Shown: positions 26,201-50,689 of the stretch, piece by piece
Numbering within the stretch: the stretch's first letter is position 1
Layout: each line of letters opens with the position of its first letter
Assembly: GCF_030818255.1 (NCBI RefSeq)
Contig: NZ_JAUTAG010000001.1
Span: 868,001 to 932,000, forward strand
DNA: 64,000 nt
Direction: 5' to 3'
From: Microbacterium sp. SORGH_AS_0969
GTDB taxonomy: Bacteria; Actinomycetota; Actinomycetes; Actinomycetales; Microbacteriaceae
Notes under the pieces: generated by a model
What the model saw: the letters and a program-made list of their open reading frames with translations, nothing else
Database searches by the model: none
Told to the model about the DNA's origin: nothing
Program-made: the position numbers and the translations under genes

Positions 26201-26839
26201 TCACGCGAGATTGTCGGCGAGGTGGATGAGTTGCGCCGTGAGCCACGACCGATACGTGGCGAGGTCCCATCCGCGGGCGACGATGAAGTGCGTCCAGGGA
26301 TCGGGTCCCGTGATGAGCCCGAGCACGTCGGCGGCGATGGCGACCTGGTCGACGCGGATGCGTCCGCGCTGGAGGAACCAGCCGGCCCCGATCGTCATGT
26401 CGCGGTGACGGCGCATCTCGAGGTCGAGGTAGGCGACGCGCACCTCGGCGTCGCCGTCGGCCGCGGCGAGCATGGCCCGCACGATCGCCGCGGAGCGCTG
26501 GTTCGCCTCGATGAGGAAGTCGACGTAGCGAGCGATCGCGGTGTCGGTGTCGGGCTCGCTCATGATCTCGACGAGCGCGGGACGCTCGGTGAGCGAGTGC
26601 CGCCCCTCGTCGCCCGCGAAGGTCCGTTCGAAGGCGGCGATCAGCAGAGCATGCTTGGGGCCGTTCAGGTGCACCGTCGGGATCGACACCCCCGCCTCGG
26701 CGGCGATCGCCTTGATGGTGGTGGCGACGTAGCCGTCGCGGACGAAGAGTCGACCCGCCGTGTCGACGATGTTCGCGCGTGTGGCGGCGGCCTCGGCCTG
26801 TCGCTTGGGGGACTGATAGCTGCGGGGCACGTCCCACAC
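26201..26839 (-). CDS. TetR-family regulator
   Basis: 212 residues. HTH at residues ~20-65 (RANIVDTAGRLFVRDGYVAT, then IKAIAAEAGVSIPTVHLNGPK), followed by an all-helical ligand domain. It starts at GTG 26839, one base after the stop of the upstream membrane-protein gene; a GTG three codons in is an alternative. The post-HTH sequence GPKHALLIAAFERTFAG closely parallels that of the TetR at 35284 (GPKRRLVFAAFTMAFAG), marking both as one subfamily. It probably controls the 23.9-27.5 kb cluster and may recognise the TATACG..ATATA element at 27550. Confidence 0.92.
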   Translation of the reverse strand: MWDVPRSYQSPKRQAEAAATRANIVDTAGRLFVRDGYVATTIKAIAAEAGVSIPTVHLNGPKHALLIAAFERTFAGDEGRHSLTERPALVEIMSEPDTDTAIARYVDFLIEANQRSAAIVRAMLAAADGDAEVRVAYLDLEMRRHRDMTIGAGWFLQRGRIRVDQVAIAADVLGLITGPDPWTHFIVARGWDLATYRSWLTAQLIHLADNLA

Positions 26840-26840
26840 G

Positions 26841-27479
26841 CTACTTCGCTGCGGCGGCGCCGGCCCGGGCGATGAGGAGTCCCGCGATGATCTGCGCGCC
26901 CGTGGACACGAAGTACATCGCGTTCGTCAGCCACTCGAAGGAGCTCGCGTTGATCACGGCACCGAGCGCGAAGCCGATGATCGCGAGCGCGAGGATCGCC
27001 CACCGCGCGGGGCCGGTGAGCACCCGTGCACGCGCGACGATGATGCCTCCGACGAGCAGCAGCACGCCCTGGACCGCGCTCATGGCGAACAGGAACGCCA
27101 TCGCTCCGTCGGTGGGCTCGGCCGTCGGCAGGAGGTAGGCCGCGAGCAGGTACATGCTCTGGTTCGCGAGGAAGAAGGCACCGAAGCCCAGCAGGGCGAT
27201 CTTGCCCACGAGCGACGAGCCGACCGCCCCCTGACCGTCGCCGCGGCCGAGAGCGAGCGGGAACATCGCCGCGACGTGGGCGAGGGTGCTCGCGAGGAAC
27301 AGCACCCAGAACGCGGCGGCGGGCCCCGGTTCGGAGGATACGTCGGTTCCGATCTCGAGGGCGGTGGCAGCGGTCAGCAGCACACCTCCGGTGAGGATCA
27401 GGATGCCGGCAGCTCGGAGCCATGAGGGGCTCGAGGAAGCAGGGGAAGAAGAGCGAACACTGAGGGTGGGAGCGGTCAT
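26841..27479 (-). CDS. Integral membrane protein, about six helices, unknown function
   Basis: 212 residues with six predicted hydrophobic segments, including LRAAGILILTGGVLLTAAT, ANQSMYLLAAYLLP and SSFEWLTNAMYFVSTGAQII. The general look is that of DUF4386-like proteins, but the match is loose. ATG at 27479 follows AAGGAG; the longer upstream reading adds no protein-like sequence. It is the first gene of the leftward cluster with TetR, glycosyltransferase and SDR. Confidence 0.75.
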   Translation of the reverse strand: MTAPTLSVRSSSPASSSPSWLRAAGILILTGGVLLTAATALEIGTDVSSEPGPAAAFWVLFLASTLAHVAAMFPLALGRGDGQGAVGSSLVGKIALLGFGAFFLANQSMYLLAAYLLPTAEPTDGAMAFLFAMSAVQGVLLLVGGIIVARARVLTGPARWAILALAIIGFALGAVINASSFEWLTNAMYFVSTGAQIIAGLLIARAGAAAAK

Positions 27480-27549
27480 TGGATGACTCCTTCGATGAGG
27501 CGAGGCGAGAAACGCGAGCGGGGTGAGAGTCATCCCGATCCGTTAATTA

Positions 27550-27567
27550 AATATATCTGCGTATAAG
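27550..27567. promoter_or_regulatory. TetR-subfamily operator candidate, copy 1
   Basis: On the leftward strand this reads CTTATACGCAGATATATT, in an AT-rich patch that is unusual for this genome. It overlaps the spacer after a -35-like TTGACT and before an AATTAA-type -10 region, about 70 bases upstream of the membrane-protein gene. It differs by two bases from the element at 35126-35143. Confidence 0.65.
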
Positions 27568-27571
27568 TCAA

Positions 27572-28132
27572 TTACGGAAGCGTTTTGGCCCGAACCTCTC
27601 GACGAGTTGTCGGCTGCGCATCGTGGTCGAGGTCCACCGGAGCGACCGGGCCGCGGCCGCGTCGCACCGGGAGCGGCAGGAAGATCAAGCCGATGAGCAG
27701 CACGACGAGCGACAACCGCATCGGCAGCGTGTCGACGGCGAGAAGCACCGTCGCCGGCGGGCCCTCGAGGTGATGGCGAACGACGCCGCGCACGTCGGAG
27801 ACGGCGACAGGTATCGGGTCGGCTTCGGCGTTCGCGTCTCCGCGGAGCGTCAACGAGTCGCCCTCGACGGCGACGATGCGGTGCGTGTAGCGCCCCGATC
27901 CCGGCGGCTCGACCGTGACGATCGCGCCCGGCACGAGCTCGTCGGGCTCAGCGCGGCCGACGAAGAGCACGTCACCGAGGTGGAAGGTCGGCACCATGGA
28001 GTCGCCGTCGACGCGGACGATCTCCTGCTGCGTGACCGCGCCGTAGGCGAACGGACCGCCGAGAGCGGCGAGCAGGACCGCGACGATGATCCAGCGGACC
28101 GGAGAGAGAGCGGCGCGCAGAGTACGGTTCAT
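27572..28132 (-). CDS. SipW-type (ER-type) signal peptidase I
   Basis: 186 residues. An N-terminal anchor helix (WIIVAVLLAALGGPFAYG) is followed by the catalytic Ser in DGDSMVPTFHLGDVLFV near residue 46, and by YTHRIVAVEGDSLTLRGDAN, where His replaces the Lys of ordinary bacterial enzymes. A C-terminal helix anchors the other end. SipW-type peptidases cut the special signal peptides of TasA/camelysin-like proteins. Here they would serve the four upstream gene products, several of which carry the matching G-AWFTD..(S/T)G signal. The start overlaps the stop of the upstream RCC1 gene (ATGA), making it the last gene of the operon. Confidence 0.92.
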   Translation of the reverse strand: MNRTLRAALSPVRWIIVAVLLAALGGPFAYGAVTQQEIVRVDGDSMVPTFHLGDVLFVGRAEPDELVPGAIVTVEPPGSGRYTHRIVAVEGDSLTLRGDANAEADPIPVAVSDVRGVVRHHLEGPPATVLLAVDTLPMRLSLVVLLIGLIFLPLPVRRGRGPVAPVDLDHDAQPTTRREVRAKTLP

Positions 28133-30870
28133 CGTGCGATCGCCGCGGCCGCGGCAGGCGAGGCCCACCCGAGATAACGGTACGAGACGGTGTACGTCAC
28201 GGTGCCGGGCAGCGTACAGTTTCGCCCGACAGGGGTCGACGGAGCCGCACAGAAGGAGAAACTCTGCGGCGGAAGTGGGCTCAGCTGCCCCGGGCTCAGC
28301 TTGAGCATGCCGAACCCGTCGAAACCCGCTGCCCAGGACGTTCCGTCGGAAGCGACGGCAATCGACTGCAGCTGCGCCGCGCTCACCTGCACGATGCCCG
28401 GCGCGGAGGTGGAGGAGGCCCAAGACGTCTGCATAGGCTTTGGCGTGGAGTACGCGGTCCTGATGTCACCGAGACCCAGCTGCCCGACCCCGTTGCCTCC
28501 CCAACCCCACACGTCGCCACTCGACGTCACCGCGAGCGACGAGAGGGGCCCCGCGCTCACTTGAGCGATCGACACACCGTCGCCCCACGATCTCGTCACC
28601 GGTTGCGGGCGGACGGCCGAGTGCTCTGCACCGTCGCCGTCGCCGAGGAGCCCGTTGTTACCGATCCCCCACGCATAGACCACACCTTCGCGCGTGAGCG
28701 CGAGAGAGTGCCCCTGTCCCGCGCTCACCTGTCGGATGAACGGGATAGAACCGCCGCTCGGCCAGGACACGGGCCTGGGCACGCGTGCAACGTGGGCGCT
28801 TGCGTCGCCATCTCCCAACCCGCCCCCGGCGCCGTCCCCCCACGCCCACACCGCCCCGTCTTTCGTCAACGCCAGGGAGCGATTGCCGCCCGCGCTCACC
28901 TGCCCGACAGGGACACCTTGCAGTCCGCTCCGCGCGGGAACGGGAACCGCCGAGTTCTGCGCTTCGCCGTTGCCCAGCTGCCCCTCCGTACCCCGCCCCC
29001 ACGCCCAGACGTCCCCGTCGGTAGTGACAGCCAGGGAATGTTCTGTACCCGCGCTGATCTGCGAGATCCGCGCAGTGGTGCCCCAGGTCTTGGTGACGGG
29101 AACGGGCACGACCGAGTCCTGCGCGGTGTCGTTGCCCAGTCGACCGTCGGCTCCAGCCCCCCATGCCCACACCGATCCGTCCGATGCCAGCGCCAGGGAA
29201 TGCGAGAATCCCGCGCTGACCTGCGTGATGCGCACCGCGGGCCCCCATGAGGGAGTGACGGGAACCGGCGTCTGTGCTCTGCTGCGGGAGCCGTTGCCCA
29301 GTCGGCCGTTGTCGCCTGACCCCCATGCCCAGACGGATCCGTCCGATGCCAGGGCGAGGCTGTGGGAGTAGCTCGAGCTGACCTGGGTGAATGTACGCTT
29401 GCCGATGAGAACCGGCACGATCTGGTCGGCGACGCTACCGTCACCTGTACGGACTGTCTGATTCCACCCCCACAACCCTCCTGACGACGTCACCAACAGC
29501 GACGGGGCCCGTCCGGCACTCACGTACGCGACCGCAGTATCCCCGCTGACCGCAACGAGCGCCGGCACTGATGCTCCCCGCCAGCTGTCGTCGCCGATTC
29601 GTCCGCTTGCGCCACCCCAGACCCAGACCTTTCCCGACGAGTCCAGCGCCAGCGAATGCTTGTACCCCGCACTCACCTGCGTCACGGTGTTCGCGCCGAG
29701 GGGCACTGAAACAGGGACGTTCGATCTCTTCGTGTTCGTCACCAACTGCCCGAAGATGCCGTCGCCCCACGCCCAGACCCGCCCCGACGAGTCCACCGCC
29801 AGCGAGTGCGCCGCACCCGCGCTCACCTGCGTGATGGTGACGCCCGCGCCCAACGCCACTCGAACCGGCACCAGCGCGTCGTCGGCACCGCCGTTTCCCA
29901 AGCGCCCGAGACCGCCGGATCCCCACGCCCACGCCTGGCCCGACGAATCCACCGCCAGCGAATGCGCCGCACCCGCGCTCACCTGCGTGATCGTGATACC
30001 GGAGGCCAACTTCACGGGAACCGGCACAAACGCATCCTCGGCACCGCCGTTTCCCAGCCGACCGTTGCCTCCGGTCCCCCAGGCCCATACCTTTCCCTGC
30101 GAGTCCAGCGCCAAGGAGTAGTCGCTGCCCGCGCTCACCTGCGTGATCGTCACACCAGCCGGCCACCGGACCGACACCGGCACAGGCACGAGCGAGGAAT
30201 CCGAACCGCCATTGCCCAGCCTCCCGTCAGCACCGGATCCCCACGCCCACACCGAACCAGCCGAATCGACAGCCAACGAGTGCCATTCCCCCGCGCTCAC
30301 CTGCGTGATCGTCACACCAGCCGGCCACCGGACCGACACCGGCACAGGCACGAGCGAGGAATCCGAACCGCCATTGCCCAGCCTCCCGTCAGCACCGGAT
30401 CCCCACGCCCACACCGAACCAGCCGAATCGACAGCCAACGAATGCGATCCCCCCGCGCTCACCATCCCGAACGGCTGCCCGCCCGGGTCGGTGAACGACG
30501 TCCCCGACGTCGTGCCCAACGTCTGCGCGGGACGCCCCTCGACCTGCCGCTGCACCGTGTACGTCACACCGTCGGTCACCTTGGCATCCGTCGCCCAGGA
30601 CTGTGTCGTCGCTGCCGGCCACGACACCGTGTTCCCGGCCCCCGCGGCGGCGACGGTCGGCGAGAGCGCTCCGAGCGTCGCCGCCGACGCCGAGCCGGAC
30701 ACCGAGCGGGAGTCGGTGAACCAGGCCCCTGAACCGCCTACGACGGGAACCAGTAAGAGAGCCACGACTGCCAGAGCGGCGGCGCGACCGAGCGGGGCGG
30801 CGAGGTCCGAGCGGCGCGCGGACGAAGGGGCGACGCCGCGACGGAGCGAGCGAGAGAGCGAGAAACGCAT
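28129..30870 (-). CDS. Secreted giant RCC1-repeat protein with SipW-type signal
   Basis: 913 residues. The signal region (ALLLVPVVGGSGAWFTDSRS then VSGSASAATLGALSP) is of the SipW-dependent type. Next comes what looks like the first half of an FN3-like domain (NTVSWPAATTQSW to TSGTSFTDPGG), then 14 RCC1-like repeats of ~54 residues (pattern SVWAWGSGADGRLGNGG...VSAG..HSLAVDS), enough for two seven-bladed propellers. The end (VTYTVSYRYLGWASPAAA) resembles the last two strands of an FN3 domain, preceded by a two-Cys loop CAAPSTPVGRNC. There is no LPXTG or C-terminal anchor. Bacterial RCC1 proteins are poorly characterised; ligand binding on the surface is inferred. Two of its repeats are identical at the DNA level. 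Confidence 0.88.
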   Translation of the reverse strand: MRFSLSRSLRRGVAPSSARRSDLAAPLGRAAALAVVALLLVPVVGGSGAWFTDSRSVSGSASAATLGALSPTVAAAGAGNTVSWPAATTQSWATDAKVTDGVTYTVQRQVEGRPAQTLGTTSGTSFTDPGGQPFGMVSAGGSHSLAVDSAGSVWAWGSGADGRLGNGGSDSSLVPVPVSVRWPAGVTITQVSAGEWHSLAVDSAGSVWAWGSGADGRLGNGGSDSSLVPVPVSVRWPAGVTITQVSAGSDYSLALDSQGKVWAWGTGGNGRLGNGGAEDAFVPVPVKLASGITITQVSAGAAHSLAVDSSGQAWAWGSGGLGRLGNGGADDALVPVRVALGAGVTITQVSAGAAHSLAVDSSGRVWAWGDGIFGQLVTNTKRSNVPVSVPLGANTVTQVSAGYKHSLALDSSGKVWVWGGASGRIGDDSWRGASVPALVAVSGDTAVAYVSAGRAPSLLVTSSGGLWGWNQTVRTGDGSVADQIVPVLIGKRTFTQVSSSYSHSLALASDGSVWAWGSGDNGRLGNGSRSRAQTPVPVTPSWGPAVRITQVSAGFSHSLALASDGSVWAWGAGADGRLGNDTAQDSVVPVPVTKTWGTTARISQISAGTEHSLAVTTDGDVWAWGRGTEGQLGNGEAQNSAVPVPARSGLQGVPVGQVSAGGNRSLALTKDGAVWAWGDGAGGGLGDGDASAHVARVPRPVSWPSGGSIPFIRQVSAGQGHSLALTREGVVYAWGIGNNGLLGDGDGAEHSAVRPQPVTRSWGDGVSIAQVSAGPLSSLAVTSSGDVWGWGGNGVGQLGLGDIRTAYSTPKPMQTSWASSTSAPGIVQVSAAQLQSIAVASDGTSWAAGFDGFGMLKLSPGQLSPLPPQSFSFCAAPSTPVGRNCTLPGTVTYTVSYRYLGWASPAAAAAIAR
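30128..30441. repeat. Identical 152-bp tandem copies within the RCC1 gene
   Basis: 30128-30279 and 30290-30441 are identical over 152 bases at a 162-bp offset, exactly one 54-residue RCC1 repeat. Neighbouring repeats are clearly diverged, so this pair arose by a recent in-frame duplication or gene conversion. Confidence 0.92.
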
Positions 30871-30957
30871 GCGGGTTCTTTCAGAGGGAAGGGCGGGCCG
30901 CCTGAGCAACCGAGAGGTCACCCGCGGCGGAAAGGGAAGACACGAGCACCGCGCCGC

Positions 30958-33738
30958 TCATCGCGTGATCGCCGCCGTCGCGACCGGCGAGGACCAGCCG
31001 CGGTAATCGTAGGAAACGGAATACGTCGTCGTGCCGGGGAGCGTGCACGAGCGTCCGACCAGGGTGGACGGGGGTGGGCAATTCGCGGCCGCGAAAGCGG
31101 ATGGCACCGCCACGGGTGTGGCCTGGTCCGCAACGCCTCCGTCGCCCAACTGTCCGGATCCTCCCGCACCCCATGCCCAGGCAGACCCGTCGGATGCCAA
31201 GGCCAAGGAATGCGATCCTCCGGCGCTCACCTGGGTGATCGACCGACCCGCGTCGTTCGACCATGCGGGGTTCACTGCCTGGGGAGTCAGCGCCGTTTCC
31301 ATCTTTCCCGTGCCGAGCCTGCCGTTCGAGCCGTCGCCCCACGCCCAGACGGATCCGTCGGACGCCAGCACCATCGAGTGGACCCGACCCGCAGCCACCT
31401 GCGTTGCCCAGACTCGAGGAGAAGCCCTGAACCACGGGGCAGCGACATCGACGCGACCGCGGCCGTATCCCGGAGCCGACCCGTCGCCCAAAGCGACCGG
31501 ATCCGATCCGCGGGAGGGGCGTCCACCCCACGCCCACACGTCTTTGCCGATCGACAGTTCCAGCACATGCGTCGTGCCTGCGCTGATAGCCTGCGCACCT
31601 CTCGGGGCGATCAGCTGCGGCTTGGCCGCGCGCTCCATGCCCTGCATCTGATCCGACCGCGCTACTCCCCATCCCCACAAGTCCCCCACCGAGGACACGA
31701 CCAATGCGAAGCCCGGGCCGGCGCTAACATCCGACGCCCGATAGCCCGACAGCACCCAGTTCGACGGAAAATCCACCTTCGTCGGCACCGTCTCCGTCGT
31801 CGATTCATCGGAAATCGTTCCCCATTGCCACACGGAGCCGTCGGCCGCGATAGCGAGGCACTGACCACCGCCCACCGCGACCTTGGTGATCTTGAGACCG
31901 TTTCCGCCCGTCGAGGGAACCCGGACCGGAGTGGCGCTATCCCCTCGGACATCAGGACCCAACTGCCCATCGGAACCGCTGCCCCATGCCCACACCGAGC
32001 CGTCGGATGCCAGGGCCAACGACGTCGTGTCCCCTGCGGCGACCTGTGTGATCTTGCGGGTGGGATCGTCTGCCCTCCACGATGCGCGAACCGGCACGGG
32101 TAACGAGGACGAGCGGAAGCTCGGATCGCCGTCACCCAAACGCCCGTGGGCTCCATCACCCCAGGCCCATACCGAGCCATCGGACGCCAGCGCCAGAGAA
32201 TGCGAGACACCCGCGCTGACCTGCGTGAGAGTGCGTGCACCGACCGGCCCAGGGACGGACTGGTCAGTGGTGGACCCGTTCCCGAGCAACCCGTTCCACC
32301 CGGGACCCCACGCCCAGACTGACCCGTCCGACGCCACGGCAACCGAGTGGGAAGCGCCCGCGCTCGCCTGGGTGATCCGCTTGCCCCGATCCCACAGGGC
32401 ATCGACCCGCCGGGGCCCTGAGACATGGTCGCTTTCGTCCCCGTCCCCGAGCACCCCGTTCTCGCCGCTTCCCCACGCCCACACCGACCCGTCCGACGCC
32501 ACCGCCAATGAGTGCATCGGGGCGGCGCTCACCTGCGTCGCACGCATCCCGGCATCCCACATCGCGTCGAGCCGTACCGGCCCTGAGACATGTTCCGACA
32601 CGACCCCATCGCCCAAGCGCCCGAAGCGACCTGATCCCCATGCCCACACCGATCCATCCAGCGCGACGGCCGCCGAATGCCAGATGCCCGCGCTGACCTG
32701 CGCCACACGCACGCCGGCGTCCCAGAGCGAATCCACACGCAGTGGTTCTGAAGAGTGCCCGCTCGCAACCCCATCGCCCAGAACCCCCCACGCACCGGAA
32801 CCCCAGGACCAGACGGAGCCATCAGACGCCACAGCCAACGCGTGCAACTCGCCCGCACTCACCTGCACCGCACGCACACCTGCGCCCCACAGTGCGTCGA
32901 CCCGCACCGGCGCCGAGAAATGCCTGCTGGCATCCCTGTCCCCCAGCACCGCCCCCTCGCCGTCTCCCCACGCCCAGACCGATCCGTCAGATGCCACCGC
33001 CAAAGCGAACTGCTCTCCCGCGCTCACCTGCGTCACGCGGACGCCCGCGTCCCACAAGGCGTCCACCCGCTCCGGCGCGGAGACGTGCGCGCTCGCGTCC
33101 CCGTCACCCAGCACTCCCCCGCCACCGGAGCCCCACGCCCAGACCGCCCCATCCGATGCCACCGCGAATGCAGAGGAGGACCCCGCGCTCACCTGCGTCA
33201 CCTGCACACCCGCGTCCCACAACGCCTCCACCCGCACCGGGGTCAGCGCGGGACGACCTGTCCCCTGTCCGTTCCCCAGCTGCCCGGAGGAATCGTCACC
33301 CCAGGCCCACACGGACCCGTCCGGAGCGACCCCGAATGAAGCCGTCCCACCCGCACTGATCGTCCCGAACGGCTGCCCGCCCGGGTCCGTGAACGACGTG
33401 TCCGACGTGGCCCCCAGCTGCTCGGCGGGACGCCCCTCAACCTGACGCTGCACCGAGTACGTCACACCGCTGGTCACCCCGGCATCCGTCGCCCAAGCCT
33501 GATCCGTCGCCGCCCGCCACGACACCGTGTTCCCGGCATCCGCCGCGACGACGGTCGGTGACAACGCTCCGAGCGTCGCCGCCGAGGCCGAGCCCGACAC
33601 CGACTGCGAGTCCGTGAACCAAGCCCCCGACCCGCCGACCACCGGGACCATCAGGAGCGCCATGACCGCGAGGGCCACGACGCGCACGGAAGCACGACGA
33701 GACGCCGGACGGCGAGATGAACGGCGGAGGAAGCGCAT
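30958..33738 (-). CDS. Second secreted giant RCC1-repeat protein with SipW-type signal
   Basis: 926 residues. It has the same plan as the downstream gene: a basic N-terminus, hydrophobic stretch ALAVMALLMVPVVGGSGAWF then TDSQSVSG, a half FN3-like segment (NTVSWRAATDQAW to TSDTSFTDPGG), 14 RCC1-like repeats and a final CPPPSTLVGRSC loop with VSYDYRGWSSPVATA. Repeats 2-6 form a subfamily with RVDALWDAGVRVTQVSAG. Repeats 10-12 are degenerate or have longer loops. ATG at 33738 follows GAAAGG. The two proteins share their ends closely but differ in the repeats, so they are paralogues that evolve mainly by repeat exchange. Confidence 0.88.
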   Translation of the reverse strand: MRFLRRSSRRPASRRASVRVVALAVMALLMVPVVGGSGAWFTDSQSVSGSASAATLGALSPTVVAADAGNTVSWRAATDQAWATDAGVTSGVTYSVQRQVEGRPAEQLGATSDTSFTDPGGQPFGTISAGGTASFGVAPDGSVWAWGDDSSGQLGNGQGTGRPALTPVRVEALWDAGVQVTQVSAGSSSAFAVASDGAVWAWGSGGGGVLGDGDASAHVSAPERVDALWDAGVRVTQVSAGEQFALAVASDGSVWAWGDGEGAVLGDRDASRHFSAPVRVDALWGAGVRAVQVSAGELHALAVASDGSVWSWGSGAWGVLGDGVASGHSSEPLRVDSLWDAGVRVAQVSAGIWHSAAVALDGSVWAWGSGRFGRLGDGVVSEHVSGPVRLDAMWDAGMRATQVSAAPMHSLAVASDGSVWAWGSGENGVLGDGDESDHVSGPRRVDALWDRGKRITQASAGASHSVAVASDGSVWAWGPGWNGLLGNGSTTDQSVPGPVGARTLTQVSAGVSHSLALASDGSVWAWGDGAHGRLGDGDPSFRSSSLPVPVRASWRADDPTRKITQVAAGDTTSLALASDGSVWAWGSGSDGQLGPDVRGDSATPVRVPSTGGNGLKITKVAVGGGQCLAIAADGSVWQWGTISDESTTETVPTKVDFPSNWVLSGYRASDVSAGPGFALVVSSVGDLWGWGVARSDQMQGMERAAKPQLIAPRGAQAISAGTTHVLELSIGKDVWAWGGRPSRGSDPVALGDGSAPGYGRGRVDVAAPWFRASPRVWATQVAAGRVHSMVLASDGSVWAWGDGSNGRLGTGKMETALTPQAVNPAWSNDAGRSITQVSAGGSHSLALASDGSAWAWGAGGSGQLGDGGVADQATPVAVPSAFAAANCPPPSTLVGRSCTLPGTTTYSVSYDYRGWSSPVATAAITR

Positions 33739-33805
33739 GAAGCCCTTTCGGGGAAGGCGAACGGCGGTGAGGCGGCGTCGATGGACGCGCCTCACCGCCG
33801 GAGGA

Positions 33806-34408
33806 TCAGCTGGTCGGGAACTGCGTGTCGTCGTCGAAGGTCGAGTCGGGCGCGTCGGCCTGGATGGCCTTGACGACGACGTCGAAGGCGACCGAGGCAC
33901 CCTGGAGGTCGTTGGCCGTCGTGGACGGCAGCGAGACTCGGTAGTCGAGCGTCGTCGAGGTGCCCGCGTCGAGCGCCGACGCGCTCTTCTGCAACACCGC
34001 CGCGGCGGTGGCGATCGACGTGGGGGCCGACCAGTTGCCGGCACCGCCCTGGCGGAACTCGATCTGCACAGCGTCGAGGAAGCCCGCCTTCGTCGGCGTA
34101 CCGGGATCGAGGTCGGCAGCCCAGAGGAACTTCGCGGTGCCGGAGTTCGAGATCGTGATGCTGCCTTCTTTGCCCCCGGTCGAGTCCGCGGATGGCAGCA
34201 GATTCGACACCTCGATCTTCGTAGCTCCCCCCGACGTCAGTGAGTCGAGGACGACCGTCGCCGCGGTGAGCTCGTTGCCGGTCATCTTCTGCTGGTCGGT
34301 GAACCAGGCGCCCGAGGCGAGGGTGCCCCCGACGCCGGCGAGGACGAGGGCGCCGGCTGCGAGAGCCATCTTGCGCTTGGTGCCGCGCGTTGCCGTGTTG
34401 GTCGTCAT
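33806..34408 (-). CDS. TasA/camelysin-like secreted protein with SipW-type signal
   Basis: 200 residues. The signal peptide AGALVLAGVGGTLASGAWFT then DQQKMTGNELTAATV matches the SipW substrate pattern. The mature part is a beta-rich domain (VEVSNLLPSADSTGG, GSITISNSGTAKFLWAADL) ending in ASVAFDVVVKAIQADAPD, as in TasA/CalY-like proteins that build extracellular fibres in Firmicutes; actinobacterial members are mostly uncharacterised. ATG at 34408 is chosen because the SipW signal starts there. It lies 67 bases before the first RCC1 gene in the same direction. Confidence 0.86.
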   Translation of the reverse strand: MTTNTATRGTKRKMALAAGALVLAGVGGTLASGAWFTDQQKMTGNELTAATVVLDSLTSGGATKIEVSNLLPSADSTGGKEGSITISNSGTAKFLWAADLDPGTPTKAGFLDAVQIEFRQGGAGNWSAPTSIATAAAVLQKSASALDAGTSTTLDYRVSLPSTTANDLQGASVAFDVVVKAIQADAPDSTFDDDTQFPTS

Positions 34409-34488
34409 GCGTGTTTCTCTTTCTGGAGAGGTGGATGGTGCAGAGAAATGGCCGCGCGCGGCCGAGCGACTCGAGGATCGAGCCACGA

Positions 34489-35109
34489 TCAGGGGGAGGG
34501 GATCTGCTGCGCGATGGCGCGCACGTCGAAGGACACGTGCGCGCCCTGGACGCTGTTGTCGACCGTCTCAGGGAAGCCCGCGCTCACCGCCACATCGACC
34601 GACGTGCCCGCCGCGAGCGTGAACACCCTCGTGGGTGCGGTCTCGTCGAGGCCCTGTGACGTGGACCCCAAAGCGGAGTCGAAGCCGACCTGAACCTGGT
34701 CGGCGACGCCCGCGGCATCGGAGGTGACCACCGTGCCGAAGAACACCGCTGCCGGCGCGGCGGACGTGTTGGAGAGACGGAACGTCGAGGTCGTCGCCGC
34801 CTGACCCGCCACGACACTCACCCCCGCGTCGGGGTGGTCGACGTGCGTCACGTCGAGGAAGTCGCAGGCCTGCGACGACGACGCGTGCGCGCTCGTGGCA
34901 ACCGGAGGCAGGGCGACGAGTCCGAGCGCCAGCAGGACGAGCACCGTCGCACCGGCGGCGAGGGCCCGGCGCCGCCAGAGCGCGACGGCGACGCCCGCGA
35001 TGAGGAGCACGGCTCCGAGCACCGCGAAGGGGAGCCACTCCATGCCGGTCAGCGCCAGCGATCCCGAGGGAAGTGCGGCGCCCGGATTCTCGATCGGGCA
35101 GGGATTCAT
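34489..35109 (-). CDS. TasA-like membrane-anchored protein with sorting-signal-like N-terminus
   Basis: 206 residues. Residues 1-70 are odd: a Pro/Gly-containing tract with LALTG, a helix (WLPFAVLGAVLLIAGVAVAL), a basic WRRR and then a second hydrophobic stretch ending PPVATSAHASSS like a cleavable signal. The first part has the order of an LPXTG-type sorting signal, which normally ends a protein. The remaining ~130 residues form a TasA-like beta domain, and its end (SVQGAHVSFDVRAIAQQ) parallels the end of the next gene product (DLQGASVAFDVVVKAIQ). It is first in the surface operon, opposite a TetR gene. Confidence 0.78.
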   Translation of the reverse strand: MNPCPIENPGAALPSGSLALTGMEWLPFAVLGAVLLIAGVAVALWRRRALAAGATVLVLLALGLVALPPVATSAHASSSQACDFLDVTHVDHPDAGVSVVAGQAATTSTFRLSNTSAAPAAVFFGTVVTSDAAGVADQVQVGFDSALGSTSQGLDETAPTRVFTLAAGTSVDVAVSAGFPETVDNSVQGAHVSFDVRAIAQQIPSP

Positions 35110-35125
35110 GGCATCTTCGCATTTC

Positions 35126-35143
35126 AATATATCGACGTATAAG
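35126..35143. promoter_or_regulatory. TetR-subfamily operator candidate, copy 2
   Basis: On the leftward strand this reads CTTATACGTCGATATATT, 16 of 18 bases identical to the element at 27550-27567. It lies 17 bases before the first gene of the RCC1/TasA operon and about 140 bases before the divergent TetR gene. The TATA..TATA ends give it partial dyad symmetry. Confidence 0.68.
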
Positions 35144-35283: not shown

Positions 35284-35961
35284 ATGAGATTCAGGATCCG
35301 GCAGAATTCCCCCGTGACGAATCGCGCAGACGCCGCCGCCCGAACCCGACGCCGCATCCTGCAGGCGGCGGCCGAGCTCTTCAGTGAAAACGGCTACGGT
35401 CAGACGACTCTGCAAGCCATCGCGGACCGCGCCGGCGTCTCGGTCGAGAGCGTCGGCTTGGCCGGCCCGAAACGGCGCCTCGTCTTCGCCGCGTTCACCA
35501 TGGCTTTCGCCGGGCACGGCGAAGCATTCCCGGTCAGCGGCGAACCCGCCTACGTCGATCTGATGCAGCGGATGCCACTCCCCCAGGCGATCGACGAGTA
35601 CCTCACCCTTCTGACCGCCGCGATCGCCCGGACGCACCGGCTCTGGAACGCTCTTCGCGCGGCCGCGGATGCCGACCCCCGAGCGGCGGTCATGCTCGAG
35701 CAACTCCGCGCAGAACGCCGGCGCGAGTTCGAGCGATCTGCGCGCACGCTCGCAGAGCTCGCGGGCCTGCCACACGAATCGATTCCCCTGCTCGTGCGCG
35801 AGTTCTTCGCCATCGCCTCACACGAGGTCTACGACCTGCTCTCCCTGGAGTTCGACATGAGCCCCGCGGGGTTCACCGACCGGCTGCGCCGTCAGCTGGG
35901 CCAACTCATCGCCGAAGCCGGCGCAGCCTCCGCGGGTACGCCACGCACGACGTCTGGGTGA
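35284..35961 (+). CDS. TetR-family regulator divergent from the RCC1/TasA operon
   Basis: 225 residues from ATG 35284; GTG at 35314 gives a more usual N-terminus just before ARTRRRILQAAAELF, and neither start has a strong ribosome site. HTH at ~20-65 (GYGQTTLQAIADRAGVSVES), then GPKRRLVFAAFTMAFAG, which parallels the TetR at 26201. The remaining helices form a ligand domain. Position and orientation suggest it controls the surface operon through the element at 35126, and perhaps also the one at 27550. Confidence 0.9.
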   Translation: MRFRIRQNSPVTNRADAAARTRRRILQAAAELFSENGYGQTTLQAIADRAGVSVESVGLAGPKRRLVFAAFTMAFAGHGEAFPVSGEPAYVDLMQRMPLPQAIDEYLTLLTAAIARTHRLWNALRAAADADPRAAVMLEQLRAERRREFERSARTLAELAGLPHESIPLLVREFFAIASHEVYDLLSLEFDMSPAGFTDRLRRQLGQLIAEAGAASAGTPRTTSG

Positions 35962-44896: not shown

Positions 44897-45823
44897 ATGT
44901 CGACCACCGAAGCCCACACCCATGACGTCGCCGTGCTCGGCGAGGCCCTCGTCGACATCGTGACCACCGCGGCGGGAGCGTCCGAGCGGCCCGGAGGCAG
45001 CCCCGCCAACGTGTCCGTCGCTCTCGGCCGACTCGGCCGCGACGCCACGCTCGTGGCACGCGTCGCCGACGACGAGCGCGGGGCCGCGTTGACCGCGTGG
45101 CTCTCGGCATCCGGAGTCGACCTGGTCACGGCCGGATCGCCGGAGCGCACCGCCACCGCCCGCGCCACCATCGGCGAGAACGGCAACGCGACCTACGACT
45201 TCGACATCGACTGGGTACTGCCCTCCCCCGTCGAGATCCCCGCCGCGCGGATCTTCCACACCGGATCCGTCGCCGCGACACTCGCACCGGGTGCCGACGA
45301 GGTCCGCGCCGCCGCCGAGCGCGCCCGCGCCACGGCACTGGTGAGCTACGACCCCAACATTCGTCCCGCCCTCACGGGCGGCCACGACGACGCCGCCGCC
45401 CGCGTCGAGGCGCTCGTCGCCCTGGCCGACGTCGTCAAGGCGAGCGCCGAAGACGCCGAGTGGCTCTATCCGGGCGTTGCCGCCGTCGATGTCGCGCGGC
45501 GATGGGTCGAGCTGGGCGCCGGGCTCGCCGTGATCACCGACGGAGAGGCGGGATCCCTCGCGGTCACCGCCCACACCACCGTCGAGATCGCCGCCGTTTC
45601 CGTCAGCGTCGTCGACACCGTCGGAGCGGGCGACACGTTCATGGGGACGCTGCTCGACGGCATCCTGGACATCCCCGGAGACGTCGACGAACTGCGCGCG
45701 AGCATTCGCGCCGTGGACCACGACGCCCTCGTCGCGCTGTTGAGCCGTGCGGCACGCGCCGCCGCCATCACCGTCGGCCGCGAGGGAATGGACCCCCCGA
45801 CGCGCGACGACCTGGCCGGCTGA
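44897..45823 (+). CDS. PfkB-family carbohydrate kinase (fructokinase-like)
   Basis: 308 residues, ribokinase fold. VAVLGEALVDIV at the N-terminus and ERPGGSPANVSVALGRLGRD form the sugar-site motif; the C-terminal signature DTVGAGDTFMGTLLDGIL near residue 240 carries the catalytic Asp and the anion hole. It phosphorylates a sugar with ATP, fructose being the likeliest. ATG at 44897 has GGAAGGA upstream. The last 56 bases overlap the end of the convergent sortase gene. Confidence 0.92.
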   Translation: MSTTEAHTHDVAVLGEALVDIVTTAAGASERPGGSPANVSVALGRLGRDATLVARVADDERGAALTAWLSASGVDLVTAGSPERTATARATIGENGNATYDFDIDWVLPSPVEIPAARIFHTGSVAATLAPGADEVRAAAERARATALVSYDPNIRPALTGGHDDAAARVEALVALADVVKASAEDAEWLYPGVAAVDVARRWVELGAGLAVITDGEAGSLAVTAHTTVEIAAVSVSVVDTVGAGDTFMGTLLDGILDIPGDVDELRASIRAVDHDALVALLSRAARAAAITVGREGMDPPTRDDLAG

Positions 45824-46820
45824 TCGGGCGGGTCTTCGGCGGGCGGCCGGCGGCATAGACCAGCACGCAGAGCGCACCGAAGGATGCCGGGATGATGACG
45901 GCCCACCAGGGGAAACCGGGGATGTCCGGGGCCTTGCCTGCGGCGTCGATGTCGGCCTGCGGCGTCGGGGTCACCCGCTCCCCCGTCACCAGGATGCGAT
46001 GGGTGTTGATGCCCAGAGGCGTGCAGGTGACGAGCGTCACCAGGTCTTCCCCGGCCTGCGGGAAGAGGCTCTCGGTCTCCTCCGGCAGCACGACCCGCGT
46101 GTCGCGCACGCGATAGGTGAGCACCTCTCCGAAGACCTCGATGGTGAACGTGTCGCCGACGACGACCTTGTCGAGATCATCGAAGAGCGTGGCTCCGGCG
46201 AGCCCCCGGTGCGCGGTGAGCACCGAGTGCTGGTCGGCACCGCCGACCGGCAGCGACGTGCCCTCGAGATGACCGACGCCCTTGCTCAAGGTCGCGTCGC
46301 TGGTGCCGTGATAGATCGGTAGGTCCACATCGATCGACGGGATGCGCAGCCGAGCCATCACCCCGTCGGCGCTGGCGTGAAGCAGGTCGTCGTAGACGAA
46401 CCCCGGTGCGTTCGCGCCAGAGCCCGTCGGCACGCGCGACCCCGCCTCGAGCAACGCCCCGCCCACGAGCGCGGAGTTGTAAGAGTGCGCTTCGGACAGT
46501 GCCTCGCTGCGCGTCGACCGAGTCGTCGCGCCGAGGTCGGTCTCGACGCTCACGATGAGTCGCGACTGGTTGTACTGCGTCCACCAGCTCGCCACCGTCG
46601 GGTACATGAGCAGCAGAACGCCCAGGAAGGCGACGAGGGCGAACACCACCGTTCCCCACGGCAGGTGCCATCGGCGACGACGGGCCTGGCGGCGGGATGC
46701 CGGGGGGCCGGGGTCCTCGCCGGGGGGACGCCAGGACCGACGTCGGCGCGGGTGCAGCGCGACGTCGGCCCCAGCTACGGGAGAGGTGGCGTTGGGGGAG
46801 CCCACCCCTCCCGGCTTCAT
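45768..46820 (-). CDS. Class C sortase (pilus-assembly sortase)
   Basis: 350 residues. A basic Pro-rich N-terminus is followed by a helix (WGTVVFALVAFLGVLLLMYP), the catalytic domain with His in VLTAHRG near residue 210, Cys in LVTLVTCTPLG near residue 265 and Arg in INTHRILVTGE, and a C-terminal helix (WWAVIIPASFGALCVLVY). A second membrane anchor is typical of class C enzymes, which link pilin subunits through Lys of one and the LPXTG Thr of the next. It starts four bases after the stop of the major pilin gene, last in a three-gene pilus operon. Confidence 0.94.
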   Translation of the reverse strand: MKPGGVGSPNATSPVAGADVALHPRRRRSWRPPGEDPGPPASRRQARRRRWHLPWGTVVFALVAFLGVLLLMYPTVASWWTQYNQSRLIVSVETDLGATTRSTRSEALSEAHSYNSALVGGALLEAGSRVPTGSGANAPGFVYDDLLHASADGVMARLRIPSIDVDLPIYHGTSDATLSKGVGHLEGTSLPVGGADQHSVLTAHRGLAGATLFDDLDKVVVGDTFTIEVFGEVLTYRVRDTRVVLPEETESLFPQAGEDLVTLVTCTPLGINTHRILVTGERVTPTPQADIDAAGKAPDIPGFPWWAVIIPASFGALCVLVYAAGRPPKTRPISRPGRRASGGPFPRGRR

Positions 46821-46824
46821 GCGG

Positions 46825-48231
46825 TCAGGACCGCTTCGCCCGCGCGCGGCGAGCGATGATCGTTCCCACACCCGCGACGACGAGACCGCCGCCGACGATG
46901 GTGAACAGGGCGCTTCCCGCGCCACCGGTCAGCGGGAGGTTCGGCCCCTGCTGCTGGGTGTTGTCGATGGTGACCGTCGTCGGCGTGTCTGCTCCGGTGG
47001 CGTTCACGGTGACCTGGGTCCACGGGTCGGCGGGGAGGACGTATCCGGCGGGTGCCTGCGTCTCCTTCACCCAGTAGGTGCGCGACGTCACCGAGTCGTT
47101 GCCCACCCACAGGCCGGCGATCGAGATCTTGCCGGTCGCGTCGGTGGTGAACGGACCGGTGACGAGCGCGCCGTTCTTGGCGTCGTACACCTCGAAGATC
47201 GCACCCGAGAGCGCGTTGGAGGTCGCGGCATCCGTCTTCTGGATCACGAGGGGGCCCCAGTTGGTCTGCGGCGTGTTGGTCTCGCGGTCGGATCCGTTGG
47301 TGTTGACCACGGCGGTGTTGGTGATCTGGCCGTTGGCTCCGAGGCTGGTGACCTTCGTCGAGATCTTCGCCTGAACGGCCGTCTTGCCCGCGAGCTTGGA
47401 CAGACCCGTCGAGGTGAAGGTGATCTTGACGTTGCCGGACACCGTGTAGTCGGTGTTCTCCACGAGCGTCGTTCCATCCACGGAAACGGTGGCACCCGTG
47501 TAGGACAGGCGGGCGTCGAGGTTGTCGGTGATCGAGAAGCTGCGGTAGGTGTCACCCGCGGCGAGCGCCGGGAGGGGAGCATCCACCGTCCACACGACCG
47601 TCGAACCGAGCACCGGGGCATCCGGGGCCGAGACCGACTTGGTCGGGGTGGTGTCGTTCAGCTTGTTCTTCGGGTAGACGTGCACGTCGTAGAGCCAGGT
47701 CCCCTGGTTCGGGTACGGCACCGACACGAGGAAGGGCTGCACGGGCGAGACGATCGGGTTGGGGCCGGGGTTGGTCTCGGTGACGTAGTACAGACCGTAG
47801 GGGAGGTTCGCCACAACCGCCTCACCGTTCGCTCCCGTGGTCGCCGTGGTCGAGCTCGAGAACGAGAAGGGGGCCGACGTGATGTTGGCGGGCGTGGCCG
47901 TCGCGGCCTGGTCCCAGCCGGCGGCGGTGGTCAGGTCGATCGCCGTGCCGTTGTAGGCGACGCGCTGCACCGAGAACTGCACGCCCGAGAGCGCTTGACC
48001 GAGCTGCTGGACGGCGGCCGGATCCGTGATCTCGGTACCGTTGCCCGCGGCACCGGGGTCACCCGCGTGCTTGTGGATGGTCAGCGTTCCGGTGGTACCG
48101 GTGATGTTCGACGGGCTCGCAGGGTCTGCTGCTTGTGCGGCCCCGGCGGCTCCCACCGAGCCGAGCGCGGCGAGGGCCGCGATTCCGATACCGGCGGCCA
48201 GCTTTCGCAGCCGTAGTGATCTGGTGGACAT
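46825..48231 (-). CDS. Major pilin (SpaA/SpaH-like isopeptide-forming fimbrial protein)
   Basis: 468 residues. Signal peptide LAAGIGIAALAALGSVGAAG with AQA cleavage near residue 34. The pilin motif is visible as DVHVYPKNKL near residue 180, whose Lys is the expected crosslinking residue. CnaB-type domains follow, with an E-box YWVKETQAPAGY near residue 390. The C-terminus is a sorting signal: LPLTG near residue 437, helix and ARRARAKRS tail. It forms the pilus shaft, polymerised by the sortase next door. Confidence 0.95.
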   Translation of the reverse strand: MSTRSLRLRKLAAGIGIAALAALGSVGAAGAAQAADPASPSNITGTTGTLTIHKHAGDPGAAGNGTEITDPAAVQQLGQALSGVQFSVQRVAYNGTAIDLTTAAGWDQAATATPANITSAPFSFSSSTTATTGANGEAVVANLPYGLYYVTETNPGPNPIVSPVQPFLVSVPYPNQGTWLYDVHVYPKNKLNDTTPTKSVSAPDAPVLGSTVVWTVDAPLPALAAGDTYRSFSITDNLDARLSYTGATVSVDGTTLVENTDYTVSGNVKITFTSTGLSKLAGKTAVQAKISTKVTSLGANGQITNTAVVNTNGSDRETNTPQTNWGPLVIQKTDAATSNALSGAIFEVYDAKNGALVTGPFTTDATGKISIAGLWVGNDSVTSRTYWVKETQAPAGYVLPADPWTQVTVNATGADTPTTVTIDNTQQQGPNLPLTGGAGSALFTIVGGGLVVAGVGTIIARRARAKRS

Positions 48232-48310
48232 GTGATTCTCGCTTTCTTTCCGTGGCCGCCGAGGTCGACGACAGCCGAGTAGAGAGGGGATGTGCGGGGA
48301 GGACGAACGG

Positions 48311-50689
48311 TCAGCGCGAAGACCGCAGCCGGCGCCTCAGGATCAGGGAGATGGCGATGACGGTCGCGCCCGTGAGGGTTCCGAGACCCGCGATCAGGAA
48401 CGCATCCGCTCCGACGCCGCCCGTCAGCGGCAGACGTGCCCCCGGCTGCTGCTCGTTCGTCTGCGGGCCGAGGTTCTGCGTCGTGCCGGCGTTGGCCGCT
48501 GTCACCGTGAAGGCCAGTGATCCCGCCGCGATGTATCCCGCGGGGGCCCGCGTCTCGGTGGCGGTGTACGACCCCCAGGCGAGCGCGTCGAGGCGGAACG
48601 CCCCGGGAGCGGGATCCTTGTCCAACCCGGTGCACGGGCTGCTGACGCAGTCGACGACCACGTTGTTCGGGGCAGCGAATGAGGGGCCCGAGACCGTCCA
48701 TTCCGACCCGGACAGCAGGTCGCCGGTGGCCTTCGACGTCTTGGTCCAGGCGACGCTTCCGGGCTTGCTCGCGTTCGTGATGGTGCACACCACGTCGGCG
48801 TCGGCGGCGACGGAGACCGAGGCACCGGTCACGGTGCCACCGGTGCAGCTCCACGTGCCTGTCTGGTAGCCGGTGGGCGCGCCCGACTCGGACAGCGCGT
48901 ACGCGCCCGGGGCCACGATGGCGGACGTGATCGAGCTCTCACCGGTCTTGCCCGTGATGGTCTGCGAGCCCGTTGCGGTCAGCGTCCAGTCGGCCGGGGT
49001 CGAGCTGCCGCCGTACGTGTTGTCGACCTGCTTCTTCAGCGTCAACAGACCCGAGACCGGCTTGTTGGTGAGCGTGCAGTCCACCGCATCGCCGGGCGCG
49101 ATGTTCGACACGGGGGTTCCAGACGGAGTCGCCACGGGTACGCTCTGCGTGCTGCCGTCGGCTCGAGCGATCGTGCAGACACCGCTCACGAACCGCCAAC
49201 CGCTCTGCTGCTGCTCCGAGACCGTCACCTGGGCGCGGGACGAAGCACCGGTGAATCCCAGTTGCCACGACACGTTTCCGGATGCCGGGGTGACCTGGGT
49301 GGTCGCAGACGGAGAGGCGGTGCCGGCGCCGGTCGTGAACGTCGTCACCGCACCGAGAGTCCACCCGCTCCCGGGAACCGGGTTCTGCCCGCGGATGTCC
49401 TGGATCACCTTGCGGACGGTGACGCTCGCGGTCAACGGCCGGTTGGTGAACGTGCACTCGACGCTCGCGCCCGGGCGGTTGGGGATGGTCACCGTCGAGC
49501 CGGACCCCACCGCCACCGCAGCGCCGGTCTCGTCGAGGCACGCCAGAGTGCTCGCATAGCTGGCGAGCGAACTGCCGGATCCCGTCGCCATCTGCTCCGA
49601 CAGCGTGTACGTGGCGCCCTGCAGAACGGCGAGGGGCCCGACACGGGCGGCCTGCACGCCCGTCGCCGAACCCGACGTCGTGGCGGTTCCGGAGACGACC
49701 GAGCCGCTCGTGACCGAGAGGGTGAATTGGTCCGAGCTCGCAACGCGCGCGGCGACATCCTTGCGGAGCGTCAGGTTGGCGGGGGAGTTGCAGCTGGCGA
49801 GGTCCGTGCTGTCGCTCAGTCCCGTCGTGGCGACGGAGATCAGCGTGCCCGTGGAGGTGTCGTACTCGCGCGCGGTGGTCGCGTTGCCGAGGAACATGCT
49901 GCCGCTGGTGTTGAAGGCGATCCCGTTGATTCCGGAGAAGCCGGAGGTGGTGAAGCTGAATGACTTCGACGCGGGGATCGCTCCGCCGGTGGCCGCCGCG
50001 AGGGCGGCCGCGGTCACGGAGAAAACCGTCGTGTTCGACTGGCCGCGGACGATGTACAGGTTGCCGTTCGCGTCGAACGCCATGTCGCCGTTGAACGCCG
50101 AACCGTCGGCGCCCGCCGAGGCGTCTACCGAGCCGATGAGCGTGAAGGCTCCGGTCGAGGGAACGTATCGGGTGAGCTGGAACTGGCCCCCAGAGGTGAA
50201 GCCCCCGAGGTAGTAGTTGCCGGTCTTCAGGTCGATGGCCCCCGCGACGAACGAGGTGATCGAGTTGTTGGTGTAGGTGTCGGTGGTCCTGACCCAGTTC
50301 GTCCCGGTGAAGTAGTACATGGTCGCCGTCCGCGCCGAATTGGTGCGCTCATAGGCCAGGGCCGTCGTGCCGTTCGCACCGATACCGAGGCCGTTGAATG
50401 ACGAGACGTTCGGCGCAGCCGCGCCGACGGTGGACACCGTCCCGCTCGTGATCCGCCTCATCTGACCGCCCGCGGACACCGAGTAGAACGTCTGCGGCGC
50501 GCAGGTCAACGATGCCGCGACGCCGGAGGGGACCGAGGCCGCAACCGCCCGCGGAGAGAGCGCCTGCGTGACGGCGGTCGTGACCGCGGGGCGCAGCTCG
50601 GATGCGTTCGCCGACGTGCCCGAGCAGAGCAGCCCGAGGGACACCGCGACGACCACCGCGAGACGGACGACCTTCTCGGTCCTATGCAT
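48311..50689 (-). CDS. LPXTG-anchored pilus tip/surface adhesin with CnaB-like domains
   Basis: 792 residues. Signal peptide to about residue 31 (ANA cleavage), then ~280 residues of beta-propeller-like repeats (FNGLGIGANGTTALAYE, GDMAFDANGNLYIVRGQSN, INGIAFNTSGSMFLGN), then four to five CnaB/prealbumin-like domains (LTLRKDV, VTVRKVIQ, LTLKKQV, VAWTKTS starts, E-box-like YTATETRAPAGYI). It ends with LPLTG, a helix and RRRLRSSR. A globular N-terminal domain on a Cna-B stalk with a sorting signal is the plan of a pilus tip adhesin. It is the first gene of the operon, and its ligand is unknown. Confidence 0.92.
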   Translation of the reverse strand: MHRTEKVVRLAVVVAVSLGLLCSGTSANASELRPAVTTAVTQALSPRAVAASVPSGVAASLTCAPQTFYSVSAGGQMRRITSGTVSTVGAAAPNVSSFNGLGIGANGTTALAYERTNSARTATMYYFTGTNWVRTTDTYTNNSITSFVAGAIDLKTGNYYLGGFTSGGQFQLTRYVPSTGAFTLIGSVDASAGADGSAFNGDMAFDANGNLYIVRGQSNTTVFSVTAAALAAATGGAIPASKSFSFTTSGFSGINGIAFNTSGSMFLGNATTAREYDTSTGTLISVATTGLSDSTDLASCNSPANLTLRKDVAARVASSDQFTLSVTSGSVVSGTATTSGSATGVQAARVGPLAVLQGATYTLSEQMATGSGSSLASYASTLACLDETGAAVAVGSGSTVTIPNRPGASVECTFTNRPLTASVTVRKVIQDIRGQNPVPGSGWTLGAVTTFTTGAGTASPSATTQVTPASGNVSWQLGFTGASSRAQVTVSEQQQSGWRFVSGVCTIARADGSTQSVPVATPSGTPVSNIAPGDAVDCTLTNKPVSGLLTLKKQVDNTYGGSSTPADWTLTATGSQTITGKTGESSITSAIVAPGAYALSESGAPTGYQTGTWSCTGGTVTGASVSVAADADVVCTITNASKPGSVAWTKTSKATGDLLSGSEWTVSGPSFAAPNNVVVDCVSSPCTGLDKDPAPGAFRLDALAWGSYTATETRAPAGYIAAGSLAFTVTAANAGTTQNLGPQTNEQQPGARLPLTGGVGADAFLIAGLGTLTGATVIAISLILRRRLRSSR

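Follow-up and report, generated by a model that had tools for sequence, protein, structure and literature searches.

What are two RCC1-repeat proteins doing in one compact gene cluster with a SipW-type signal peptidase and candidate TasA-like proteins? The question is raised by a stretch of the genome of Microbacterium sp. SORGH_AS_0969 (G000 below). The window, that is, the whole 64,000-nt stretch under analysis (G000:C1:868001-932000), lies within one 3.94-Mb contig. On its minus strand, from 35109 to 27572, it carries five genes in the order gene 1, gene 2, RCC1-a, RCC1-b and peptidase (aa, amino acids; ER, endoplasmic reticulum):

34489-35109, minus strand: gene 1, 206 aa; reading frame, structure model and match to a TasA-like profile (E=6.8e-11)
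33806-34408, minus strand: gene 2, 200 aa; candidate TasA-like subunit, which carries the SGAWFTD signal and a segment resembling a donor strand
30958-33738, minus strand: RCC1-a, 926 aa; SGAWFTD signal, FN3-like N-terminal half, RCC1 array, cysteine pair, FN3-like C-terminal half
28129-30870, minus strand: RCC1-b, 913 aa; architecture as in RCC1-a, with 14 RCC1 repeats
27572-28132, minus strand: SipW-type (ER-type) signal peptidase I, 186 aa; Ser45 and His84

The genes are co-directional with short or overlapping junctions, as an earlier, sequence-only reading had described them: the gaps from gene 1 to RCC1-b are 80, 67 and 87 nt, and RCC1-b overlaps the peptidase gene by 4 nt. That reading correctly made the peptidase the last gene, but the interval it gave for the operon (28129-35109) omits the peptidase (28132-27572). 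The G-AWFTD signal that it reported for three products is indeed there, as SGAWFTD, in gene 2, RCC1-a and RCC1-b (3 of the 5 products); gene 1 is without it. These data support the view that a SipW-type peptidase, its likely substrates, TasA-like subunits and RCC1 cargo are brought together in one operon. Our model as a whole, which we regard as about evenly poised between right and wrong, is that the operon, under TetR control, encodes an extracellular fibre of the TasA type, which would bear an RCC1 cap at one end and be held at the other end by gene 1 as a sortase-dependent anchor.

A Ser/His active site in place of Ser/Lys is the mark of the ER/SipW-type peptidases, and Ser45 and His84 (in YTHRI) can be read directly in the operon peptidase. 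The Ser/His pattern was legible in 13 of 26 peptidase-like frames, with His in 13/13 and Lys in none; the pattern missed the other 13. With TIGR02228, the model for signal peptidase I of the archaeal/ER type, the protein scores just over the curated cut-off (52.3 bits vs 51.85), and it stays below the Bacillus SipW model NF046067 (19 bits, cut-off 190), so that the earlier label "SipW-like" holds for the peptidase type and fails for the Bacillus model. Two more relatives of the peptidase are encoded elsewhere in the genome (G000:C1:3825887; L093 10540-11208), and both adjoin a small protein with a hydrophobic leader. Therefore, the operon peptidase is perhaps not the only one able to act. At the second of these loci (L093 9861-11208, G000:C1:1879860-1881207), the gene pair is again of SipW type: the peptidase relative follows a protein of 197 aa (TIGR04088, 26.9 bits) whose leader is of the AYWN type.

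The TasA link was followed with a profile (A5) of nine gene-2 relatives, which include other proteins of the genomes G132 and G232. Five of the nine match PF12389 (TasA/camelysin) at E<=1 (best E 1.9e-4). Against PDB sequences, the best match of A5 is archaeal bundling protein X (E=0.0012), followed by TasA (0.068 and 0.082) and unrelated chains (0.084 and 0.1). To our knowledge, archaeal TasA-like fibres have neither RCC1 cargo nor a sortase anchor. A5 also matches the beta domain of gene 1, both in the window (with the E-value listed above) and in G443 (E=4.6e-10). Moreover, in three RCC1 proteins from G132 and G232, A5 covers roughly the first 200-220 residues (domain E 3.2e-28, 1.3e-27 and 1.4e-24). 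In these three relatives, as judged by the profile, a TasA-like domain is fused with the FN3-RCC1 module in one chain.

According to the available text of two reports, the strand that TasA donates in polymerising is formed by residues 28-38, behind the signal, and TapA contributes its N-terminal strand (PMC9674648, PMC10151520). When the post-signal segments of 14 distinct RCC1 proteins were scored with a matrix from 18 TasA-like genes, they lay on average 2.85 z units above shuffles, a value not readable as a probability because the RCC1 sequences are related. The corresponding segments of the two RCC1 proteins in the window reach only 2.04 and 1.72.

The RCC1 assignment itself is firm. The two window proteins score 422.7 and 361.8 bits with PF00415 and also exceed the PF25390 cut-off, and all 23 PF00415 matches in the genome at E<=0.001 fall inside RCC1-a or RCC1-b; the "giant" of the sequence-only reading amounts to about 920 aa. 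In RCC1-b, the parts are arranged as follows:

30478-30675, minus strand: FN3-like N-terminal half, by family profile
28324-30471, minus strand: RCC1 array, residues 134-849, between the FN3 halves
30128-30451, minus strand: two adjoining 162-nt blade copies, 98% identical
28132-28251, minus strand: cysteine pair and FN3-like C-terminal half, by family profile

The near-identity of the neighbouring blades suggests that blade amplification was recent. The structure model of RCC1-b (mean pLDDT 72.1, pTM 0.51) has mostly confident strands between residues 134 and 849, residues 471-487 being weak, and fits the seven-bladed UVR8 with a TM-score of 0.88-0.89 by target length. By this fit, the array likely forms two seven-bladed rings.

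The array appears to be nested in a split FN3-like domain: ahead of it, the sequence follows the FN3 pattern as far as FTD, and behind it come a cysteine pair and a YTVSYRYLGW-like strand. This was tabulated for 28 selected RCC1 proteins of the clusters (short frames and second frames, for example L148 11598-12116, are not included; P0072 and the G573 gene are one protein, so that two rows coincide). The cysteine pair and C-terminal half were found by pattern in 21/28 and both halves in 19/28. Three of the seven missed by this pattern show the cysteine pair with C-terminal half by eye, and four lack it by both pattern and eye (two in G051, one in G163 and one in G445). Profiles A6 and A7 contain 15 of 20 pairs of halves. 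A profile of the 15 joined pairs matches the Fn3-like PDB entry 3mpc over the junction (E=0.0043). The N-terminal halves alone give weak PDB matches, the best being 4pbx (E=0.061), a receptor tyrosine phosphatase, of a protein kind that carries FN3 domains, and 4n01 (E=0.089). Single joined halves gave FN3-type matches below curated cut-offs in two of four proteins (fn3, 7.2e-4, G314; PF16656, 4.8e-5, G122). In G867, a SipW-type protein shows, by eye, an uninterrupted FN3-like pattern with a CTD motif near the corresponding place. This suggests that the RCC1 array was inserted into an older FN3 cap. One G122 protein carries two FN3-RCC1 modules, and a much longer RCC1 frame of G445 (L149 1-7429; at least 2,476 aa and 37 repeats, truncated where the stretch ends) is without the FN3 pattern.

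Is the arrangement conserved? Among 299 genomes drawn from the family (E<=1e-10), 22 have a match to the peptidase and 35 a match to RCC1-b. A peptidase match is present in 8 of the 35 RCC1-positive genomes vs 14 of the 264 RCC1-negative ones (Fisher p=0.0015, relatedness ignored), and without the window genome the RCC1-positive count is 7/34 (p=0.005). The five other same-genus genomes of this draw have neither a peptidase nor an RCC1-b match. None of the operon partners is found at twelve RCC1 loci (L081-L092) of nine further genomes, a contrast that is biased because those nine genomes have no peptidase match; the 299-genome count is the fairer one. A locus search with RCC1-b gave nine loci in other groups, which were set aside.

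Gene 1 has its closest protein relatives in Microbacterium testaceum (95 and 83% identity), which suggests that the genome stands near this species. Near-full-length relatives, as found with profile A1, occur in at least 9 of 295 genus genomes (E<=1e-9) and at least 6 of 398 family genomes (E<=1e-11), or at least 14 distinct genomes with the window genome in both surveys. These counts are lower bounds, with 10 or 7 candidates scored per genome, and they rule out that the operon is unique to one strain. Since, besides the window genome, G573 (through P0002), G122, G080 and G132 seeded A1, nine of the 14 genomes were found independently. A1 matches of any kind at E<=0.001 are far more common (230/295 and 269/398 genomes), and most of the listed ones span only about the first 60 profile positions, that is, the sorting signal described below, in other, often longer frames. 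At the order level, the gene-1 set A3 (see below) matched 5 of 347 genomes at E<=1e-10.

Each neighbourhood was scored with four profiles (peptidase, gene 1, TasA-like, RCC1), which were partly built from the scored loci, so that matches of seed members are circular. The sequence-only reading had named a gene order kept in no relative as one refuting outcome, and the result is the opposite: the gene-1 stretch has an RCC1 gene alongside in 12 of the 14 genomes, that of the window included (G000, G122, G080, G132, G232, G573, G443, G537, G314, G367, G445 and G476). A TasA-like gene is present in 13 of the 14 and a peptidase in 12. RCC1 is absent from the stretches of G158 and G533, the TasA-like gene from that of G533, and the peptidase from those of G573 and G533, where contigs end nearby. 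The order gene 1, gene 2, RCC1, peptidase is repeated in G122, G314 and G367. Gene 2 comes first in G080 and G476, the peptidase precedes the 37-repeat frame in G445, and in G443 it stands at a second gene-1 locus outside the RCC1 stretch. In G476, a second gene-1-like frame (MDIVEPEICTVSVGALPATG..., E 1.9e-25; L151 969-1583) lies between the RCC1 gene and the peptidase.

The cargo varies among clusters. In G533, a gene-1 relative has as its neighbour a SipW-type cargo in which two stretches are ice-binding-like (PF11999; L150 1647-3935). G367 encodes a SipW-type protein whose start looks FN3-like by eye and which has a Lactonase/YNCE-type propeller in place of RCC1 (L160 10170-11528), and in G867 gene 1 adjoins SipW-type proteins without RCC1. 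RCC1 as an obligatory cargo is ruled out by these three clusters. A cluster of G220 has a peptidase, a TasA-like protein and a TIGR04089 protein (L155 8808-9374; 147.9 vs 60 bits) and no RCC1.

These results bear on the possibility that the RCC1 proteins are free secreted binders of a soluble ligand, in the manner of BLIP-II, with the TasA-like genes acting separately. The RCC1 proteins do finish in the FN3-like half with no C-terminal anchor, and RCC1/BLIP-II repeats are known from extracellular bacterial proteins (available text of PMC9218822 and PMC3447821), BLIP-II being named as a secreted binder in the former. Against this stand the donor-like segment shared with the TasA-like proteins, the TasA-like domains fused to the FN3-RCC1 module in three relatives and the conserved neighbourhood with gene 1 and gene 2, and we consider this explanation rather unlikely.

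How would a fibre be held at the cell surface? The sequence-only reading took gene 1 to be a TasA-like protein exported through SipW. This does not stand: an ordinary TasA with a SipW-type signal is ruled out by the missing AxFT motif and by the N-terminal LALTG and membrane hairpin found instead. Gene 1 begins with a short outer tail containing Cys4, followed by LALTG at residues 18-22, a first transmembrane segment (TM1), a basic loop (RRR) and a second one (TM2), which ends in an AxA site (TSAHA); Cys82 and the TasA-like beta domain come next. The motif lies as follows:

35044-35058, minus strand: LALTG codons (LAxTG, a class E-type sorting motif)

All three elements of a sorting signal, LxxTG, hydrophobic stretch and basic residues, are thus present in gene 1, and they are conserved in the set A2 (14 rows), where L18, T21, G22 and Cys82 are invariant (14/14) at a mean column identity of 38%. 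A profile search gave 67 proteins of the gene-1 family, among them proteins from Mycetocola, Compostimonas and Promicromonospora. The set A3 (44 rows) consists of the window gene 1 and 43 of these 67; left out were P0033, P0035-P0037, P0039, P0040, P0042-P0044, P0046-P0049, P0051-P0055, P0059-P0061, P0063, P0065 and P0067. In A3, Cys4, L18 and G22 are invariant, and T21 and the cysteine behind TM2 nearly so.

By a strict count, 63 of the 67 have LxxTG within the first 40 residues (a looser pattern gave 65/67), and all 63 have a cysteine ahead of the motif and another at residues 56-100. Of the remaining proteins, one has LPDAG and three are without the N-terminal part. Fifty-six of the 67 start with M/V-x-C, the start MNCDPLPxTG being common, and in many relatives the tail has 5-9 residues with Cys3. 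In G573, G314 and G367, an in-frame stop just upstream bounds the start, so the tail is truly short there and the sorting motif N-terminal rather than C-terminal. At E<=0.016, the sorting-signal models LAVTG and LPXTG each match 17/44 rows in A3, and 7/14 and 3/14, respectively, in A2; the relative P0046 passes the LPXTG cut-off (19.9). The genome has three sortase matches, including a class E sortase (235.4 bits, cut-off 160) and a class C sortase (253.7 bits, cut-off 160). Class E sortases accept LAXTG, according to the available text of PMC5148588.

The model combines these elements as follows. The SipW-type peptidase would process gene 2, the fibre subunit, and both RCC1 proteins, and gene 2 would polymerise by donor-strand exchange in the manner of TasA. 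In an RCC1 protein, a TasA-like segment at the N-terminus stands free ahead of an FN3-like domain that is already complete; the protein may therefore act as a strand donor that starts or caps the fibre like TapA, with the propellers displayed at the capped end. Gene 1, a TasA-like acceptor domain with no SipW-type signal, would tether the opposite end to the cell surface, through its membrane hairpin and, once a class E sortase had acted on LALTG, through the wall. The operon likely serves adhesion or matrix display. What is read directly from sequence comprises the order of the genes and how it is conserved, the signals, the FN3-like domain split according to the family profile, the TasA-RCC1 fusions in relatives, the N-terminal LxxTG-hairpin-cysteine architecture and the class E sortase gene.

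A more specific version concerns the paired cysteines. Sortase would link only the tiny N-terminal tail of gene 1 to peptidoglycan, and an ordinary signal peptidase would free the TasA-like domain behind the hairpin. The basic residues after TM1 place both tail and beta domain outside, which would permit a disulfide between the tail cysteine and the domain cysteine to keep the two parts together. The domain thus anchored may accept the last donor strand of the fibre. As the RCC1-FN3 end can donate a strand and cannot accept one, the fibre would have a fixed polarity: wall anchor, subunits, propeller tip. A disulfide-held wall anchor together with such a polar fibre is a tentative proposal, which we consider rather improbable as a whole.

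Several points weigh against the fibre model. Its function is deduced from gene anatomy and comparison. The window proteins have no Pfam support for the TasA-like label, gene 2 being without any Pfam match, PF12389 included, so that the two TasA-like proteins of the sequence-only reading, gene 2 and the gene-1 beta domain, stand by family profile and not by Pfam. A Foldseek search with the model of the gene-1 beta domain gave generic matches; TasA is absent from one listing of 50 rows and is row 48 of a second. The window gene 1 is below the curated LPXTG sorting-signal cut-off (13.7 vs 15.9). The split FN3-like domain comes from sequence profiles rather than structure, and the joined halves of the window protein, like those of G443, have no Pfam FN3-type match.

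The sub-threshold sorting signal, the generic fold match and a fibre predicted from sequence would all agree with a fibre-less coat of the membrane or wall, in which gene 1 is a plain two-pass protein, its LALTG stays uncut, and the SipW-type substrates form a layer. Against it, the motif is retained near the N-terminus in nearly the whole gene-1 family, its L18, T21 and G22 are invariant in A2 in spite of the low overall identity, and the genome does have a class E sortase. We find such a coat improbable.

Approximately 10 kb from the operon, the window contains a sortase-pilus type locus (45768-50803, minus strand):

45768-46925, minus strand: class C sortase
46825-48231, minus strand: LPLTG protein, 468 aa
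48311-50803, minus strand: LPLTG protein, 830 aa

That the operon products are substrates of this locus and decorate its pilus is very unlikely in spite of a class C sortase and two LPLTG-ending proteins in the same window, given that the RCC1 proteins and gene 2 have no C-terminal sorting signal and that gene 1 alone has one, at its N-terminus.

The TetR control in the fibre model refers to the flanking genes and to two putative operators:

35284-35961, plus strand: divergent TetR-family regulator (Pfam); a relative adjoins gene 1 in G573
35126-35143, minus strand: CTTATACGTCGATATATT, exact match, putative operator directly ahead of gene 1
27550-27567, minus strand: CTTATACGCAGATATATT, the other exact copy, ahead of the membrane-protein gene that comes next
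26841-27533, minus strand: membrane protein, next downstream; relatives adjoin gene 1 in G314 and G367
26201-26839, minus strand: second TetR, downstream; a relative adjoins gene 1 in G314

The two TetR proteins are 28% identical, and the two copies of the motif CTTATACG are the putative operator sites beside their genes. The 18-nt motif CTTATACGNNGATATATT occurs without mismatch exactly twice in the genome, at positions that bracket the operon; at three mismatches there are two further matches vs one for a reversed control. The motif is found with one mismatch at the corresponding place in G573, and a scan of eight other loci with up to four mismatches gave none except one in G314. TetR may bind at these sites.

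A SipW-type system with TasA-like subunits is an already known kind. The tapA-sipW-tasA operon of B. subtilis likewise combines a SipW-type peptidase with TasA-like substrates, a post-signal N-terminal donor strand and a strand-donating accessory protein (available text of PMC9674648 and PMC10151520). In contrast, the candidate accessory proteins of Microbacterium bear RCC1 propellers nested in an FN3-like domain, the operon has a sortase-type anchor protein, and the peptidase fails the Bacillus SipW model. An N-terminal LPXTG ahead of a surface domain is described for the pneumococcal IgA1 protease and ZmpB/ZmpC/ZmpD in the available text of PMC7939560 and PMC9637739. These are large proteases, likened to gene 1 by architecture, whereas gene 1 has about 200 aa, a short outer tail, a conserved cysteine pair and a TasA-like domain. 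The midcut-by-XrtH model NF033207, whose name points to mid-protein cleavage, matches 10/44 A3 members at E<=0.016 (best 2.9e-6); P0046 is far under its curated cut-off (17 vs 45, the bits of one member), and the name implies an exosortase, not a sortase. Bifidobacterium asteroides PRL2011 also has actinobacterial extracellular RCC1 proteins, to which no function is assigned in the available text. These differ in that a figure legend gives a sorting-motif domain and Listeria-Bacteroidetes repeats, and the available text mentions no SipW or TasA partner (PMC3447821). Neither a combination of SipW with RCC1 nor an actinobacterial SipW/TasA-RCC1 system was found in the literature, mainly among freely accessible papers. 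What appears to be new here, judging from sequence comparison, are the RCC1 propellers nested in an FN3-like cap, the TasA-RCC1 fusions and the N-terminal sorting-signal anchor with paired cysteines.

If the fibre model is true, the TasA/SipW fibre principle would reach into Actinobacteria and include a new class of cargo, the RCC1 propellers, and extracellular bacterial RCC1 proteins would have a working place. The system would be short and genetically simple, with fibre start, growth and wall anchoring on separate genes. Finally, the N-terminal sorting signal and the paired cysteines predict an anchoring chemistry that may be checked by one mass-spectrometry experiment.
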